Positions 4,170 through 30,086 of a stretch of DNA of 35,005 nt are shown one piece after another. The notes under the pieces were generated by a model. The model saw only the letters and a program-made list of their open reading frames with translations, had not been told where the DNA came from and ran no database searches. Position numbers and translations under genes: made by a program. Every line of letters begins with the position of its first letter. The first letter of the stretch is position 1. The stretch is taken from contig JALPYG010000005.1 of NCBI GenBank assembly GCA_023271215.1, forward strand, positions 1 through 35,005, given 5' to 3'. The stretch comes from Dehalococcoidia bacterium (GTDB taxonomy: Bacteria > Chloroflexota > Dehalococcoidia > SZUA-161 > SpSt-899).

Positions 4170-5489
4170 ATGGCATTTATTTGCTTCGTCGGAACATACA
4201 AACCCATAATATGCGGCATAGCCGATTACACCAGCTTCATAACCCGTGCGAGTCCGGCCGGCAAGTGGAGCGTGCTGTCCTTTGACCTGGAGAAATACGG
4301 GGCATCGCTGAAGAGTCGAGAGTCGAGAGTCGAGAGTCGAGAGTCGGGGAGGGACGGGGGACTCCAGACTCCAGACTCCAGACTCCAGACTCCGGTTTGG
4401 TACGGCATACCAGGGCGCCACGATTTCTCAGCCGCGGTCGTTCTGCAAGGATTGAAAGAGCTTGGATTGAAAGATGAAGATACGGTCCTGTGGTTTCAAC
4501 ACGATGATCTGATCTGGGCCGATAGCCAAAAGTTCGTGACCATGCTCATGGATCTGGAGCTGCCCAAGGTCGTCACTTTTCACACTCTCCACTTCCAGAG
4601 CTCTGAAACCCCAACCGGCCTACGGAAATACCAGTACAACCTCCTACAATCCCTGCTGCCTCATGTCCAGGCTATCACGGTTTTCAGCCACGGGGTTTAT
4701 GATGCAGTTACCTCAGCATTCCCCGAACACCGCAACAGAGTATATGTGGTGAAGCACGGCATACATTCATACCCAGCGGTAAGCAAACTGAGCAGGAAAG
4801 AGGCCAAAGAGAGACTCAATGACTTCTTGCTCTCTGAAGCGGGACTTGACCAGGCAACGAGGGACGCCCTGCGTAAGCAGCGCACATTCCTCGATCCAGA
4901 CACCTCGGTGATAGGACAAACTGGGTTCCTGTGCCCTCTTAAACACTCGGAGTCGCTTTATCTTCTCAGAGATAAGCTGCAGCAGATCACTCCTCACAAG
5001 AGAATCGCCGCCGTACGTATTGGAATGACCAGAGAGGAATCCCAGAAGATCTATGCCGGCGAACTACGAAGGGAGCAGAACGGCAGAGACAGCTTTCTCC
5101 TGGAAACCTGGTTGCCTCAAGATACCCTTGCGCTGGCGCAGCGGGCTTTCGATGTCAACTTCTATTGGCCTACTGAATGCACTCAAAGCGGCATAATGGC
5201 ACACGCGCTGGGTGCCGGTGCAATGGTCGCTGGCCGCGATCTAGAGGGGGTCGGCGAGACCCTGAAAGAGGCCGGCGGGCTTGTGGACACAGATCTGAGG
5301 CGTTTGTTAGTGAAAATCAGGGAGATCATCATAAACCCGGCTCTCAGAGAAAGGATGGAGGGAGCGGTGCTGAAGTATGCCGCAGAGTTCTCCTGGAAGA
5401 ACCAGTCCCGCAGGCATTACGAATTGGCCGAACGCATTCTGCGCCCCAAGAGATGCCCTTCGGGCAAAATCCCAAATCCGAATATCTAA
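4170..5489 (+). CDS. GT-B-like glycosyltransferase with in-frame repeat insertion
   Basis: A protein of about 439 residues resembling GT4/GT-B glycosyltransferases. The N-terminal part has a Rossmann-like beginning (FICFVGTYKPIICGIADY) with a Gly-rich loop. A middle segment reads TFHTLHFQ and FSHGVYDAV, followed by VVKHGI. The C-terminal domain shows the family pattern (FYWPTECTQSGIMAHALGAGAMVAG..GVGETLKEAGGLV) followed by helices typical of these enzymes. The ATG at 4170 begins the conserved part; an ATG at 4131 would add 13 unlikely residues. Two oddities are visible. An 81-base block (4313-4393) encodes 27 low-complexity residues between EKYGASLK and VWYGIPGR. The last residues (PNPNI) and the stop codon lie in a dispersed heptad repeat. 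Acceptor and donor are unknown. Confidence 0.75.
   Translation: MAFICFVGTYKPIICGIADYTSFITRASPAGKWSVLSFDLEKYGASLKSRESRVESRESGRDGGLQTPDSRLQTPVWYGIPGRHDFSAAVVLQGLKELGLKDEDTVLWFQHDDLIWADSQKFVTMLMDLELPKVVTFHTLHFQSSETPTGLRKYQYNLLQSLLPHVQAITVFSHGVYDAVTSAFPEHRNRVYVVKHGIHSYPAVSKLSRKEAKERLNDFLLSEAGLDQATRDALRKQRTFLDPDTSVIGQTGFLCPLKHSESLYLLRDKLQQITPHKRIAAVRIGMTREESQKIYAGELRREQNGRDSFLLETWLPQDTLALAQRAFDVNFYWPTECTQSGIMAHALGAGAMVAGRDLEGVGETLKEAGGLVDTDLRRLLVKIREIIINPALRERMEGAVLKYAAEFSWKNQSRRHYELAERILRPKRCPSGKIPNPNI
4313..4393. repeat. Paired heptad arrays (GAGTCGA)5 and (GACTCCA)5, hairpin-forming, inside a gene
   Basis: Five tandem copies of GAGTCGA (4313-4347, the last ending GG) are followed by a 12-base G-rich spacer and five tandem copies of GACTCCA (4360-4393, the last one base short). 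The GAGTC and GACTC cores are complementary, so the arms can pair as repeated 5-bp blocks. The whole block is 81 bases, exactly 27 codons, so it keeps the host reading frame. Confidence 0.95.
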
Positions 5490-17510: not shown

Positions 17511-17531
17511 TGGTGTCACTCCTCTACATCA

Positions 17532-17573
17532 TTGCAAATTGAAAATTGCAAATATCAAATTTCAAGTTTTCAT
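17532..17573. repeat. Heptad array TTGCAAA-type, left bracket of four-helix-bundle gene 1
   Basis: Units TTGCAAA, TTGAAAA, TTGCAAA, TATCAAA, TTTCAAG, TTTTCAT run without gaps. GCAAATTGAAAATTG (17534-17548) matches the reverse complement of the CAATTTA array at 17941-17989 at 13 of 15 positions, so the two arrays are inverted arms. The stop codon of the four-helix-bundle gene (17572-17570) lies inside it. Confidence 0.85.
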
Positions 17574-17929
17574 TTGCGTTTCTTTGCAGTTATGATTGAT
17601 CTTCCAATAATAGCACTTATTTGCTGAGTTTCATTTGTAGCCTCTTTAATCTCTTCACTGCTCAAAATGTCAGACCGTTCAACCAGCCTTAGCCAATACA
17701 TCGATTCGCGTATCTCTTTCAACACAATCTGCAACTTGTGTATAAAGTCTGCTCTACTTTGCGCACCACGAGCTTCTTCATAATTTGCTCCAACAGATGT
17801 TGCGGCACGTAACAATTGATTTCCAATGTGCCTACCAATCTCTGTCTTATTCAGTTCCCTACAGATTTTAATGATTGTTACACCGTAAGCAAGCAATCGG
17901 TCTGATATTTGAGTAGCTTTATCTTCCAT
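17570..17929 (-). CDS. Four-helix-bundle protein (23S rRNA-IVP family), copy 1
   Basis: A 119-residue all-helical protein of the S23/IVP four-helix-bundle family (Avd-like fold). The family pattern is seen as IGNQLLRAATSVGANYEEARGAQSRADFIHKLQIVLKEIRE followed by the YWLRL helix. Relatives are encoded in intervening sequences of 23S rRNA, in diversity-generating retroelements (Avd) and as orphan genes; a general function is not established. It lies between the FAD oxidoreductase and AOR genes of one operon, in the same direction. It is bracketed by inverted heptad arrays, and its stop codon is inside the left one. GGGGA directly precedes the ATG. No reverse transcriptase or rRNA is nearby. Its lower G+C than its neighbours also points to insertion. 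Confidence 0.85.
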   Translation of the reverse strand: MEDKATQISDRLLAYGVTIIKICRELNKTEIGRHIGNQLLRAATSVGANYEEARGAQSRADFIHKLQIVLKEIRESMYWLRLVERSDILSSEEIKEATNETQQISAIIGRSIITAKKRK

Positions 17930-17933
17930 TCCC

Positions 17934-17994
17934 CAATCTACAATTTACAATTTACAATTTACAATTTACAATTTACAATTTACAATTTACAATT
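17934..17994. repeat. Heptad array (CAATTTA)7, right bracket of four-helix-bundle gene 1
   Basis: CAATCTA (17934-17940) is followed by seven perfect tandem copies of CAATTTA (17941-17989) and a partial CAATT. It begins 4 bases upstream of the start codon of the four-helix-bundle gene. Confidence 0.97.
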
Positions 17995-19420: not shown

Positions 19421-19438
19421 TAACTCAAACCTCAAAAT

Positions 19439-19494
19439 ATGCCCTTCGGGCAAAATCCTAAATCCGAATATCTAAATCCTAAACAATATCTAAG
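19439..19494. repeat. Dispersed hairpin plus AAATCCG-type heptad array, copy 2
   Basis: Hairpin GCCCTTCGGGC (19441-19451) is followed by AAATCCT, AAATCCG, AATATCT, AAATCCT, AAACAAT, ATCTAAG (19453-19494). It matches 5453-5490 with one mismatch over 38 bases. It lies in the 243-base spacer 19421-19663, which has no gene. Confidence 0.92.
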
Positions 19495-19530
19495 TCGGAA
19501 CATTCAAAACTGTTTTGGACATTGGGATTT

Positions 19531-19565
19531 GTTTAGGATTTCGGATTTAGTGCTTAGGATTTGGA
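19531..19565. repeat. Inverted partner heptad array TTTAGG/ATTTCGG
   Basis: GTTTAGG, ATTTCGG, ATTTAGT, GCTTAGG, ATTTGGA are heptads whose reverse complement resembles the AAATCCT/AAATCCG units at 19453-19494. The two arrays therefore form long imperfect inverted arms around a 36-base centre. Confidence 0.8.
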
Positions 19566-19606
19566 TCGGATTGAAATTCCGATACAGCAAGATAACCCTC
19601 ACTCCG

Positions 19607-28187: not shown

Positions 28188-28223
28188 CGCTCAAGATACC
28201 CCTCACTCCGTTCGGGTAAATCC

Positions 28224-28258
28224 AAATTGGAAATTGCAAATTGCAAAAGTCAAATTTT
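28224..28258. repeat. Heptad array AAATTGC-type (left arm)
   Basis: AAATTGG, AAATTGC, AAATTGC, AAAAGTC, AAATTTT in perfect register. It resembles the reverse complement of 28294-28321, so the two form inverted arms in the 140-base spacer downstream of mrpG. Confidence 0.88.
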
Positions 28259-28268
28259 TCCAGTGAGT

Positions 28269-28290
28269 CTTATGAAGTTTTCCCTGCATT
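28269..28290. repeat. Dispersed CTTATGAAG segment, copy 2
   Basis: CTTATGAAGTTTTCCCTGC matches 19607-19625 at 17 of 19 positions. It forms the centre between the two heptad arms 28224-28258 and 28294-28321. Confidence 0.6.
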
Positions 28291-28293
28291 TTT

Positions 28294-28321
28294 CAATTTG
28301 CATTCTGCACTTTGAAATTTC
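28294..28321. repeat. Heptad array CAATTTG-type (right arm)
   Basis: CAATTTG, CATTCTG, CACTTTG, AAATTTC in register. It is the approximate inverted partner of 28224-28258 and ends a few bases from the mrpG stop. Confidence 0.82.
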
Positions 28322-28327
28322 TATGCT

Positions 28328-28654
28328 TCAGGGCAAGTCCTTGTATCTATCCACCACACTTTTGCCCCATAGTTTCACACCGTGTTTATAGCTTGCCCGG
28401 GCCAGGGCATGGGCCGCGGTGGGACCGGTTAGAAAGACAAAGATTATAATGAAAGCAATTTTGGCAGTGGAAAGAGTTGCCCCCTCATGCAGCATTAGCC
28501 CCGCCAGTATCAGACCCAGTCCCAAGGTATCGCATTTGGTTGCAGCGTGAAGCCTGGTATAGACATCAGGAAATCTAAGGAGAGCGATAGTTCCTATAAG
28601 GAAGAACAATGCCCCCACCGAGAGAAAGAAAACCATCAATATCTCGACTATCAT
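28328..28654 (-). CDS. mrpG: MrpG/MnhG antiporter subunit
   Basis: A 108-residue MnhG-type protein with three helices. Family marks are FLIGTIALLRFPDVYTRLHAATKCDTLGLGLILAG and FLTGPTAAHALARAS. ATG 28654 overlaps the mrpF stop by four bases (ATGA), so the two are translationally coupled. It holds position C in the Mbh-like order and helps assemble the antiporter core. Confidence 0.95.
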   Translation of the reverse strand: MIVEILMVFFLSVGALFFLIGTIALLRFPDVYTRLHAATKCDTLGLGLILAGLMLHEGATLSTAKIAFIIIFVFLTGPTAAHALARASYKHGVKLWGKSVVDRYKDLP

Positions 28655-28911
28655 CCTACCTTCCCTCGCTCCAGGTATCTGGCGACCGCCAGGACCGACA
28701 GGAATGCCAGCACAGCATAGGTTAGGGAGATGTCGAGGAATATCATCTGCTCATACATAAAGGCAAGCAGCGTCAGGATCGCCAGGGTCTTGGTGGTGAT
28801 TGCCTGTGCCGCTACTATCCGGTCAGGCAGAGTGGGTCCGGATATAAGTCTATAAGTACACAGCAGAGCGGTAAAACACAACGCCAGCACAATCACCAGA
28901 AAAACGCTCAT
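28651..28911 (-). CDS. mrpF: MrpF/MnhF antiporter subunit
   Basis: An 86-residue three-helix protein. Family marks are LCTYRLISGPTLPDRIVAAQAITT and DISLTYAVLAFLSVLAVARYLERG. The ATG has GGAGATAAGAA immediately upstream. In normal clusters mrpE directly precedes mrpF; here a ~600-base cassette with a four-helix-bundle gene and repeat arrays separates them. Confidence 0.95.
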   Translation of the reverse strand: MSVFLVIVLALCFTALLCTYRLISGPTLPDRIVAAQAITTKTLAILTLLAFMYEQMIFLDISLTYAVLAFLSVLAVARYLERGKVG

Positions 28912-28936
28912 TTCTTATCTCCAAACACTGAGATTC

Positions 28937-29062
28937 AGACACTGGACTTCAGACTTTAGACATCAGACACTAGACTTCAGACACTGGACTTCAGACTTTA
29001 GACATCAGACACTAGACTTCAGACACTGGACTTCAGACTTTAGACATCAGACACTAGACTTC
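28937..29062. repeat. Higher-order array: three 42-bp units, each of three 14-mers
   Basis: Three perfect 42-base copies start at 28937, 28979 and 29021. Each is made of CAGACACTGGACTT, CAGACTTTAGACAT and CAGACACTAGACTT-type 14-mers (2x7). A degenerate part runs on to about 29080. TAGACATCAGACACTAGACT (29041-29060) is the inverted match of 29446-29465, with 19 of 20 positions. It is the left bracket of four-helix-bundle gene 2. Confidence 0.96.
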
Positions 29063-29067
29063 AGCCA

Positions 29068-29433
29068 CTAGACTTCAGACTTTTCTATGTAGGTAATTAG
29101 TCCTTGGAGTGTCCTCAAACTTTCCTCGCTCTTTACCCATAATTCTTCATATCCATTGGTGTCTAAATATCCCAATTTCTTTGTAAACCTGATATAGTAA
29201 CTCAATTCTACCAATGATGATATAGCTATGTATAAGAACTGCAAATATTCTTTCCTGTTTTTCCTGGCTGAACCTTCTACTATATTTGCTGGTACTGATA
29301 CAGATGCTTTCCTCATCTGAGATGTTAATCCCCAAACTTCACTCTTTGGGAATTTTTTCGTAGCCTTATATACCAAGAGTGCTAATTCATCTGCTAACTG
29401 CCATGCCTTTATTTTTGTATAGTCTCTGCCCAT
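29068..29433 (-). CDS. Four-helix-bundle protein (23S rRNA-IVP family), copy 2
   Basis: A 121-residue all-helical protein of the IVP/S23 family. The family pattern is seen as WQLADELALLVYKATKKFP, WGLTSQMRKASVSVPANIVEGSAR and EYLQFLYIAISSLVELSYYI, the standard subgroup with the VPANIVEG motif. The ATG has AGGAAG 6-7 bases upstream. The protein is only distantly like copy 1 (shared fold and the S/T-V-x-A-N core), so the two were not made by recent duplication. The stop codon TAG and the last residues (SEV) are encoded by the heptad array downstream. It interrupts the mrpE-mrpF pair in the same direction. A+T richness above its neighbours also suggests import. Function unknown. Confidence 0.9.
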   Translation of the reverse strand: MGRDYTKIKAWQLADELALLVYKATKKFPKSEVWGLTSQMRKASVSVPANIVEGSARKNRKEYLQFLYIAISSLVELSYYIRFTKKLGYLDTNGYEELWVKSEESLRTLQGLITYIEKSEV

Positions 29434-29445
29434 TTTTTCTTCCTG

Positions 29446-29538
29446 AGTCTAATGTCTGATGTCTATGGTCTATGGTCTATCGTCTATCGTCTATGGTCTA
29501 TGGTCTATCGTCTATGGTCTATCGTCTATGGTCTATGG
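29446..29538. repeat. Heptad array (TCTATGG/TCTATCG)11, right bracket of four-helix-bundle gene 2
   Basis: AGTCTAATGTCTGATGTCTA (29446-29465) runs into eleven tandem heptads TCTATGG or TCTATCG (29462-29538). The first 20 bases are the inverted match of 29041-29060. The last units supply the stop codon and last residues of mrpE on the minus strand. Confidence 0.97.
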
Positions 29539-30050
29539 TCTGCATCACGGTCTCCAAACAGCCGTTCTACCTGTCTCTCAAACTCTCTCTCTATATCCAG
29601 AATCTTTTCTTCGTCCTCAATTGCCAGGCAGTGAATGTAGAAGTCACCTCCCACCACATCCACGGTCATGGTGCCTGGCGTCAGGGTAATTGAATTTGCA
29701 AGCGTCGTTTGAGCCACATCGCTTTTCAAATTGGACTTGAATTTTATGATTCCTGGTAATATTGGCATTTTGGGATCGATCACCCGGCGCGCAACATCGA
29801 TGTTAGCGATAATGATCTGCAAAACTAACCACCCAAGGAATGGTATAAACTTGCTGAAGATAACCAGAGGACGAAGGATGCCTTCAGGCTCCTTTACAAG
29901 CAAATTGTGAGAAAAAAGAGCGACCAGGAGGGAGCAAACAAGTCCGAGGCCAAGGTGCATTATGTCCATCTGGCCGGATAGCAGCAGCCAGAAGCCAAAT
30001 AAGAGGATGAAGGTCAGCCAAAATCCGGACGCATTTTTCAGTTTGGTCAT
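29526..30050 (-). CDS. mrpE: MrpE/MnhE antiporter subunit, C-terminus altered by repeat
   Basis: A 174-residue MnhE-domain protein and first gene of the antiporter part, 15 or 36 bases after rnfB depending on the start. Visible are the two N-terminal helices (WLTFILLFGFWLLLSG), the LVLQIIIANIDVARRVIDP segment, IIKFKSNLKSDVAQTTLANSITLTPGTMTVDV and the soluble end VERLFGD. Start ATG 30050 fits the family; GTG 30071 would add seven residues. The last residues (RDADHRP) and the TAG stop come from the TCTATGG heptad array, so the natural C-terminus was probably replaced when the array arrived. The core is intact, so function is likely retained. Confidence 0.9.
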   Translation of the reverse strand: MTKLKNASGFWLTFILLFGFWLLLSGQMDIMHLGLGLVCSLLVALFSHNLLVKEPEGILRPLVIFSKFIPFLGWLVLQIIIANIDVARRVIDPKMPILPGIIKFKSNLKSDVAQTTLANSITLTPGTMTVDVVGGDFYIHCLAIEDEEKILDIEREFERQVERLFGDRDADHRP

Positions 30051-30086
30051 TGCAGACAAGCGAAACCGCACTTAATAATTATAGCG

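Follow-up and report, generated by a model that had tools for sequence, protein, structure and literature searches.

An S23 gene between inverted heptanucleotide arrays at an mrpE/mrpF junction: a probable intervening-sequence-type element outside ribosomal RNA

The intervening sequences (IVSs) of 23S rRNA genes, as found in Coxiella and Leptospira (helices 9, 25 and 45), consist, in the kind that encodes a protein, of an open reading frame (ORF) of the S23 family placed between complementary, stem-forming ends. A defining trait of an rRNA IVS is that RNase III cuts it out of the precursor RNA and the ends are not rejoined. Here, we describe a cassette of similar build in a 35,005-nt stretch of DNA from Dehalococcoidia bacterium (contig JALPYG010000005.1 of assembly GCA_023271215.1; hereafter the window), in which an S23 gene, flanked by reverse-complementary arrays of 7-nt repeats (heptads), lies between the antiporter genes mrpE and mrpF. 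We read the cassette as a non-rRNA member of the S23/IVS class of elements, with ORF-less heptad hairpins as its relatives. The genome of the window (G000) is a metagenome-assembled genome (MAG) of 150 contigs and 68% completeness, and the genomes compared with it, including the congeners G002 and G003, are mostly MAGs.

Like the rRNA IVSs, the cassette encodes S23p and is patchily distributed among relatives, and, as in the rRNA cases of Coxiella and Azospirillum, heptameric repeats stand beside its S23 ORF. In Coxiella, three tandem heptamers (GACAGAT) are reported to precede the S23p start, with a copy number that varies among strains (PMC4990558), and on plasmid AZO_p2 of Azospirillum lipoferum an S23 gene armed with GAGGACG-type heptads lies within a complete 23S rRNA gene. 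Both cases lend support to an earlier reading of the window, made from the sequence alone, in which the cassette was said to echo the rRNA IVSs. In contrast to these, it sits in a protein-operon junction, its arms are longer and hold many heptads, and cleavage by RNase III is here putative.

Heptameric short tandem repeats, including GGGAATC in Xanthomonas, STRR in cyanobacteria and TAACTGA in Beggiatoaceae, are likewise tandem 7-nt units, mostly in intergenic positions. A detailed literature on them is lacking, as remarked in PMC4692102, where 70-75 convergent inverted pairs of G-rich repeats are reported for Xanthomonas and heptanucleotide tandem repeats for Calothrix and Nostoc. Polymerase slippage is the proposed cause of the bacterial 7-nt repeat excess, and S23 goes unmentioned in the open-access papers on these repeats, PMC4692102 among them (subscription journals may hold an earlier report). 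Unlike such repeats as published, the cassette arrays bracket an S23 ORF and vanish together with the S23 gene at an empty site.

The presence in one genome of a gene-bearing unit and many ORF-less hairpins with similar arms is also reminiscent of REP/REPIN-RAYT systems and of miniature inverted-repeat transposable elements, from which the cassette differs in having no RAYT or other transposase, in the locus-specific sequence of its arm heptads and in a mobilization in trans that is only putative. The S23 protein is distantly similar to the accessory protein Avd/bAvd of diversity-generating retroelements (bAvd PF22296, 38.2 bits, cut-off 40) and does not classify as Avd (NF033474, 32.9 bits, far under the cut-off of 80); unlike those retroelements, the S23 unit contains no reverse transcriptase (RT). 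An RT acting as partner enzyme was considered and rejected, as none was found in the incomplete genomes G001-G003; a single partial RT lies elsewhere in G000. One viral contig carries S23 with heptad arms, one S23 query gave no match among the INPHARED phages, and no PADLOC match pointed to a defence role.

The S23 cassette between mrpE and mrpF

The 121-residue product of the cassette gene is a member of the S23/IVP family of four-helix bundles, scoring above the curated cut-offs of both family profiles (PF05635, 110.9 bits against 33.8; TIGR02436, 106.2 bits against 24), and the closest solved structure is XCC0516 of Xanthomonas campestris (2gsc, 3.7e-19). Together with the arrays detected by TRF, these matches bear out the sequence-only reading that an IVP-type gene, bracketed by inverted heptad arrays, splits the mrpE-mrpF pair. 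The features of the junction are, in the order in which the genes are read:

29526..30071, minus strand: mrpE (PF01899)
29551..29560, unstranded: direct repeat TCTCCAAACA, mrpE-end copy (comparison with the empty site of G002)
28928..29550, minus strand: inserted unit (array, S23 gene, array), 623 bp, absent from G002 (G000/G002 alignment)
29447..29541, minus strand: 5' arm in gene sense, heptad array AGACCAT/AGACGAT..AGACATC (TRF, period 7)
29446..29465, unstranded: inner stem half, 19/20 complementary to 29041-29060 (sequence; arms paired in the predicted fold)
29068..29433, minus strand: S23/IVP four-helix-bundle gene, 121 aa (PF05635, 4.5e-32; TIGR02436, 9.5e-31)
28925..29083, minus strand: 3' arm, heptad array with a 42-nt higher-order unit, inverted relative to the 5' arm (TRF, periods 14 and 42)
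29041..29060, unstranded: inner stem half, partner of 29446-29465 (sequence; predicted fold)
28918..28927, unstranded: direct repeat TCTCCAAACA (TGTTTGGAGA on the gene strand), resembling a target-site duplication, distal copy (comparison with the empty site of G002)
28651..28911, minus strand: mrpF (PF04066)

The S23 gene thus lies between mrpE and mrpF, and all three are on one strand. The last bases of the S23 gene lie within the 3' arm, whose period 14/42 array is itself composed of heptads. The inverted match between the inner stem halves was confirmed exactly as given in the sequence-only reading, with the reverse complement of 29041-29060 (AGTCTAGTGTCTGATGTCTA) and 29446-29465 (AGTCTAATGTCTGATGTCTA) identical at 19/20 positions, as was the observation that array sequence provides the stop codons of both the S23 gene (..AAGTCTAG) and mrpE (..CATAGACCATAG). 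When the upstream flank of each ORF was matched to the reverse complement of its downstream flank (Smith-Waterman score, hereafter the inverted-flank score), the cassette gene scored 37.5 and came top of 592 ORFs (737 kb of G000; 99th percentile 21). The RNA of the insert is predicted to fold with a minimum free energy of -185, compared with -151 for shuffled sequences (z = -4.98, 20 shuffles); in this predicted fold, the arms pair in ladder fashion, each heptad contributing a 5-bp helix and a 2x2 internal loop, with an inner stem of ~20 bp beside the S23 ORF. By ORF list and profile scans, the inserted unit has S23 as its sole long ORF and contains no transposase gene, RAYT (Y1 REP) transposases included, and an Rfam scan of the window gave one tRNA and nothing else, placing the unit outside any rRNA gene and detecting no group I or group II catalytic intron RNA.

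Gene and arms were inserted together and are polymorphic between congeners. The mrpE/mrpF junction of G002 is without the gene and without both arrays, reading ..CGGCTGTTTAAGAAATGAG.., and that of G003 is occupied by the unit, which is sporadic among relatives in that it is present in G000 and G003 and missing from G002; the view of the cassette as a small insertion unit with cargo is thereby supported, and not all relatives carry the gene. TGTTTGGAGA borders the insert on both sides in G000 as well as in G003, and the gap of 639 nt in the G000/G002 alignment is the sum of 623, 10 and 6. The insertion changed the C-terminus of mrpE, which now ends ..RLFGDRDADHRP-stop, compared with ..RLFKK-stop in G002; judging from the sequence, the end before insertion in G000 would have been ..RLFGDKK-stop. 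The S23 genes of G000 and G003 are identical at 365/366 positions and the neighbouring 300-bp flanks at 93%, and the excess of the former over the latter suggests a recent transfer or conversion. The 3' arm is 84 nt longer in G000 than in G003, corresponding to two 42-nt units.

S23 units and heptad arrays at other loci

A survey of S23 genes in about nine phyla covered 86 loci from Chloroflexota, Acidobacteriota, Cyanobacteria, Armatimonadota, Methylomirabilota, Nitrospirota, a deltaproteobacterium, Pseudomonadota and Bacteroidota, as well as a viral contig and an unclassified MAG. The inverted-flank score had a median of 22, compared with 10.5 when the windows at these loci were displaced (p=5e-41, relatedness being only partly removed in this and the heptad-pattern statistics) and 10 for permuted flank partners, and 84% of the loci exceeded the control 95th percentile. 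Both arms were above threshold in 52/87 loci and one in 21/87, the periodicity was 7 or 14 in 107/125 arms, and the G-rich strand pointed into the unit at either end (57/62 5' arms; C>G in 50/60 3' arms), with a heptad sequence that varied from locus to locus. Among 301 Chloroflexota genomes, the heptad pattern TCAGCNNTCAGCNNTCAGC occurred in 34/92 genomes with S23 and 15/209 without (p=8e-10; genera p=8e-8), and S23 was carried by 19/21 genomes with at least ten matches (p=5e-9). Heptad arrays are therefore strongly enriched at IVP-family genes, a point on which the sequence-only reading had staked its interpretation, and the ranking of G000 ORFs agrees: S23 genes hold ranks 1, 4, 5, 6 and 7 among the 592, and the rank-2 ORF shares an S23 array. 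The reading had also remarked that the cassette kept operon direction, which is true of this locus and is no special trait of S23 genes, given that 46/64 of them and 31/43 other small genes are co-directional; co-direction as an S23 property was rejected for this reason. One unit is, moreover, inverted. Two further candidate properties were rejected, namely heptads made of four constant and three variable bases (no excess over the simulation control) and stop codons in all frames as the cause of period 7 (no clear enrichment in the arms).

The scope of the association needs one correction, in that heptad arrays are common elsewhere in G000, with 67 in 737 kb at lag 7; in 703 kb, lag 7 gave 71 arrays and each of the lags 5, 6 and 8-12 gave 1-4. 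Arrays alone are therefore no marker of a cassette, and the S23 gene with complementary arms is. G000 contains ten PF05635 matches, several of them fragments, most of which have inverted arrays or array remains with a locus-specific repeat. One of them is the second S23 gene of the window:

17926-17994: heptad arm (ACAATTT) of the second S23 gene
17570..17929, minus strand: second S23 gene of the window (PF05635, 69.2 bits)
17531-17569: heptad arm of the same gene, inverted (ATTGCAA)

Insertion of S23 units is recurrent, and gene and arms arrive and leave together. The rmlD-rmlC junction has an S23 unit with 10-nt repeats in G000, is empty in G002 and holds a hicBA-like pair in G003 (contig C117, locus L126, about 830-1360). 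Another S23 family lies downstream of rmlC in G002 and G003, where G000 has an array remnant only; a truncated copy of this family elsewhere in G000 shows 96-97% nucleotide identity, with a homology that begins in the array. An operon of Nostoc conjugative plasmids has two neighbouring junctions, of which one or the other is filled by an S23 unit; the plasmid(s) with a unit at one site have the other site empty and free of arrays. The direct repeat at site 1 is TTCTA. At a site in the Chloroflexota genus g75, the S23 unit is present in G076, G369, G377 and G378 and inverted in G367, and is missing from at least G064, G365, G360 and G375, with a 26-nt heptad remnant in G376 and a different PF05635 gene in G383, so that gain, loss, inversion and replacement all occur. 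Selection acts on the S23 protein there, as dN/dS is 0.05-0.13 in pairs of homologues with measurable dS. The host genes vary at nearly every locus and include antiporter, sugar synthesis, CRISPR, ribonucleotide reductase and rRNA genes, and on plasmids S23 is almost confined to cyanobacteria, including Nostoc, Calothrix and Trichormus (25/72,556 plasmid records with the query used).

Proposed mechanism and competing explanations

The cassette is probably an S23 element of the IVS type, in which an S23 gene between reverse-complementary 7-nt arrays was inserted at the mrpE/mrpF junction, leaving a short direct repeat behind. As RNA, the arms would form a long stem whose loop holds the S23 ORF, the architecture of a 23S rRNA IVS, and this stem would most likely be cut by a double-strand RNase such as RNase III within the polycistronic mRNA. 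With the stem cut (or masked), mrpE and mrpF could each still be translated from a separate fragment of the mRNA and the insertion would be tolerated, the arrays ending the frame of the upstream gene. A probable role of the S23 protein is to bind the heptad stem, as RNA or DNA, and to help in its spread or processing; since it has no recognizable nuclease, transposase or catalytic domain, we infer that it acts with a host enzyme. Direct repeats of variable length (4, 5 and 10 nt, in few cases) would be compatible with a mechanism that is target-primed or staggered in another way.

Several observations weigh against this model. The direct repeats differ in length among sites (10 nt at mrp, 5 nt at Nostoc site 1, ~4 nt at a further insert at 28192), and at the mrp junction G002 is missing six more bases, making the duplication ambiguous (5 to 10 nt possible). 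The units of G000 and G003 may stem from one shared insertion event, and the unit contains no transposase, RT or ribozyme. Neither arm was above threshold in 14/87 S23 loci, 60/67 heptad arrays sampled in G000 lie away from S23 genes, and the Chloroflexota genomes G191 and G302 have 30-32 TCAGC heptad matches and no PF05635 match, which points to loss of S23 or to another driver. Finally, the S23 gene of Coxiella is reported to be decaying and its product probably not to be made (PMC4990558).

The abundance of arrays away from S23 in G000, and an array length that differs between G000 and G003 by whole 42-nt units, an outcome expected of slippage or unequal recombination, suit an explanation in which the heptad arrays are common intergenic repeats produced by slippage and S23 is a horizontally moved gene that landed in or near them, with no single unit. 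We consider this improbable: the empty sites, at mrp and twice in Nostoc, go far to refute it, as they are without arrays as well as gene; arm complementarity is locus-specific (22 for same-locus and 10 for permuted partners); and slippage does not account for inverted arms whose G-rich strand almost always points inward. There is similarly little room for the arrays as an operator or mRNA-control region of an autoregulated S23 protein that binds the repeats and controls the host operon, a regulatory and non-mobile arrangement. Purifying selection on S23 would agree with it, and repeats of fixed period suit a multimeric binder, the nearest solved relative, from Xanthomonas, being a homopentamer (PMC4990558), but host genes change at nearly every locus, sites are empty in close relatives and the heptad sequence changes from locus to locus. 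An assembly or binning artefact, conceivable for a 68% complete MAG in 150 contigs, is refuted by the presence of this insertion in G003 and by equivalent units on finished plasmids and in one-contig genomes, and has next to no probability.

Beyond the mrp cassette, the IVS-type model invites an extension that is possible and, in our view, somewhat doubtful: S23-heptad units might form a widespread mobile class without a known transposase, of which the rRNA IVSs would be those with rRNA as their landing site, and a substantial fraction of the heptanucleotide repeats over-represented in bacteria (STRR, GGGAATC and similar) might be arms or ORF-less derivatives. Two old puzzles are linked by the data, the origin and purpose of rRNA IVSs and S23, and the surplus, in many bacteria, of 7-nt repeats relative to long simple repeats of other lengths. 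The link extends over rRNA as well as protein and CRISPR operons in different phyla, and the empty sites make mobility, RNA cutting and protein binding testable.

ORF-less heptad elements and side observations

Heptad hairpins that share this build and lack an ORF are likely non-autonomous relatives of the S23 unit. Of the 60 heptad arrays of G000 away from S23 genes, 20 have an inverted partner within 150 nt, compared with 3/670 random segments. Two ORF-less heptad elements of the window are as follows:

4312..4393, unstranded: ORF-less heptad hairpin, 5 x AGAGTCG / 5 x GACTCCA (TRF, predicted fold)
28192..28334, unstranded: ORF-less heptad-bearing insert in the mrp operon, 142 bp (present in G000 and G002, absent in G003)

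The hairpin at 4312-4393 is predicted to fold into the ladder seen in the cassette fold, made of 5-bp helices and 2x2 internal loops (z = -2.3). The predicted RNA fold of the 28192-28334 insert is no better than that of shuffles, and repeats related to this insert occur in G004. A further 160-bp ORF-less inverted repeat with GGATTTC/TAAATCC heptads lies at 19433-19593 of the window; its copies, at 91-99% identity on several G002 contigs, mark it as a member of a dispersed repeat family.

At the g75 site, the space between apparently convergent genes holds short hairpins in the S23-free genomes (L331, L341, L344 and L345), some of them resembling terminators, and in the occupied genomes the heptad unit replaces this short-hairpin region. 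S23 units are also found in CRISPR operons, between cas6 and cas4 in Pseudanabaena galeata and Anabaena sp. 90 and between cas10 and cmr3 in Picosynechococcus PCC 7003 (L280, L281 and L291). At some loci, array sequence is translated as the repetitive C-terminal tail of an S23 protein (L001:1459-2004; L041, e.g. TTNPKPMTMNPKPITMNPKP; L058), and an S23 gene with AAATTACG-type arms lies within an apparent type I restriction specificity (hsdS) gene at L042 (G001:C124).
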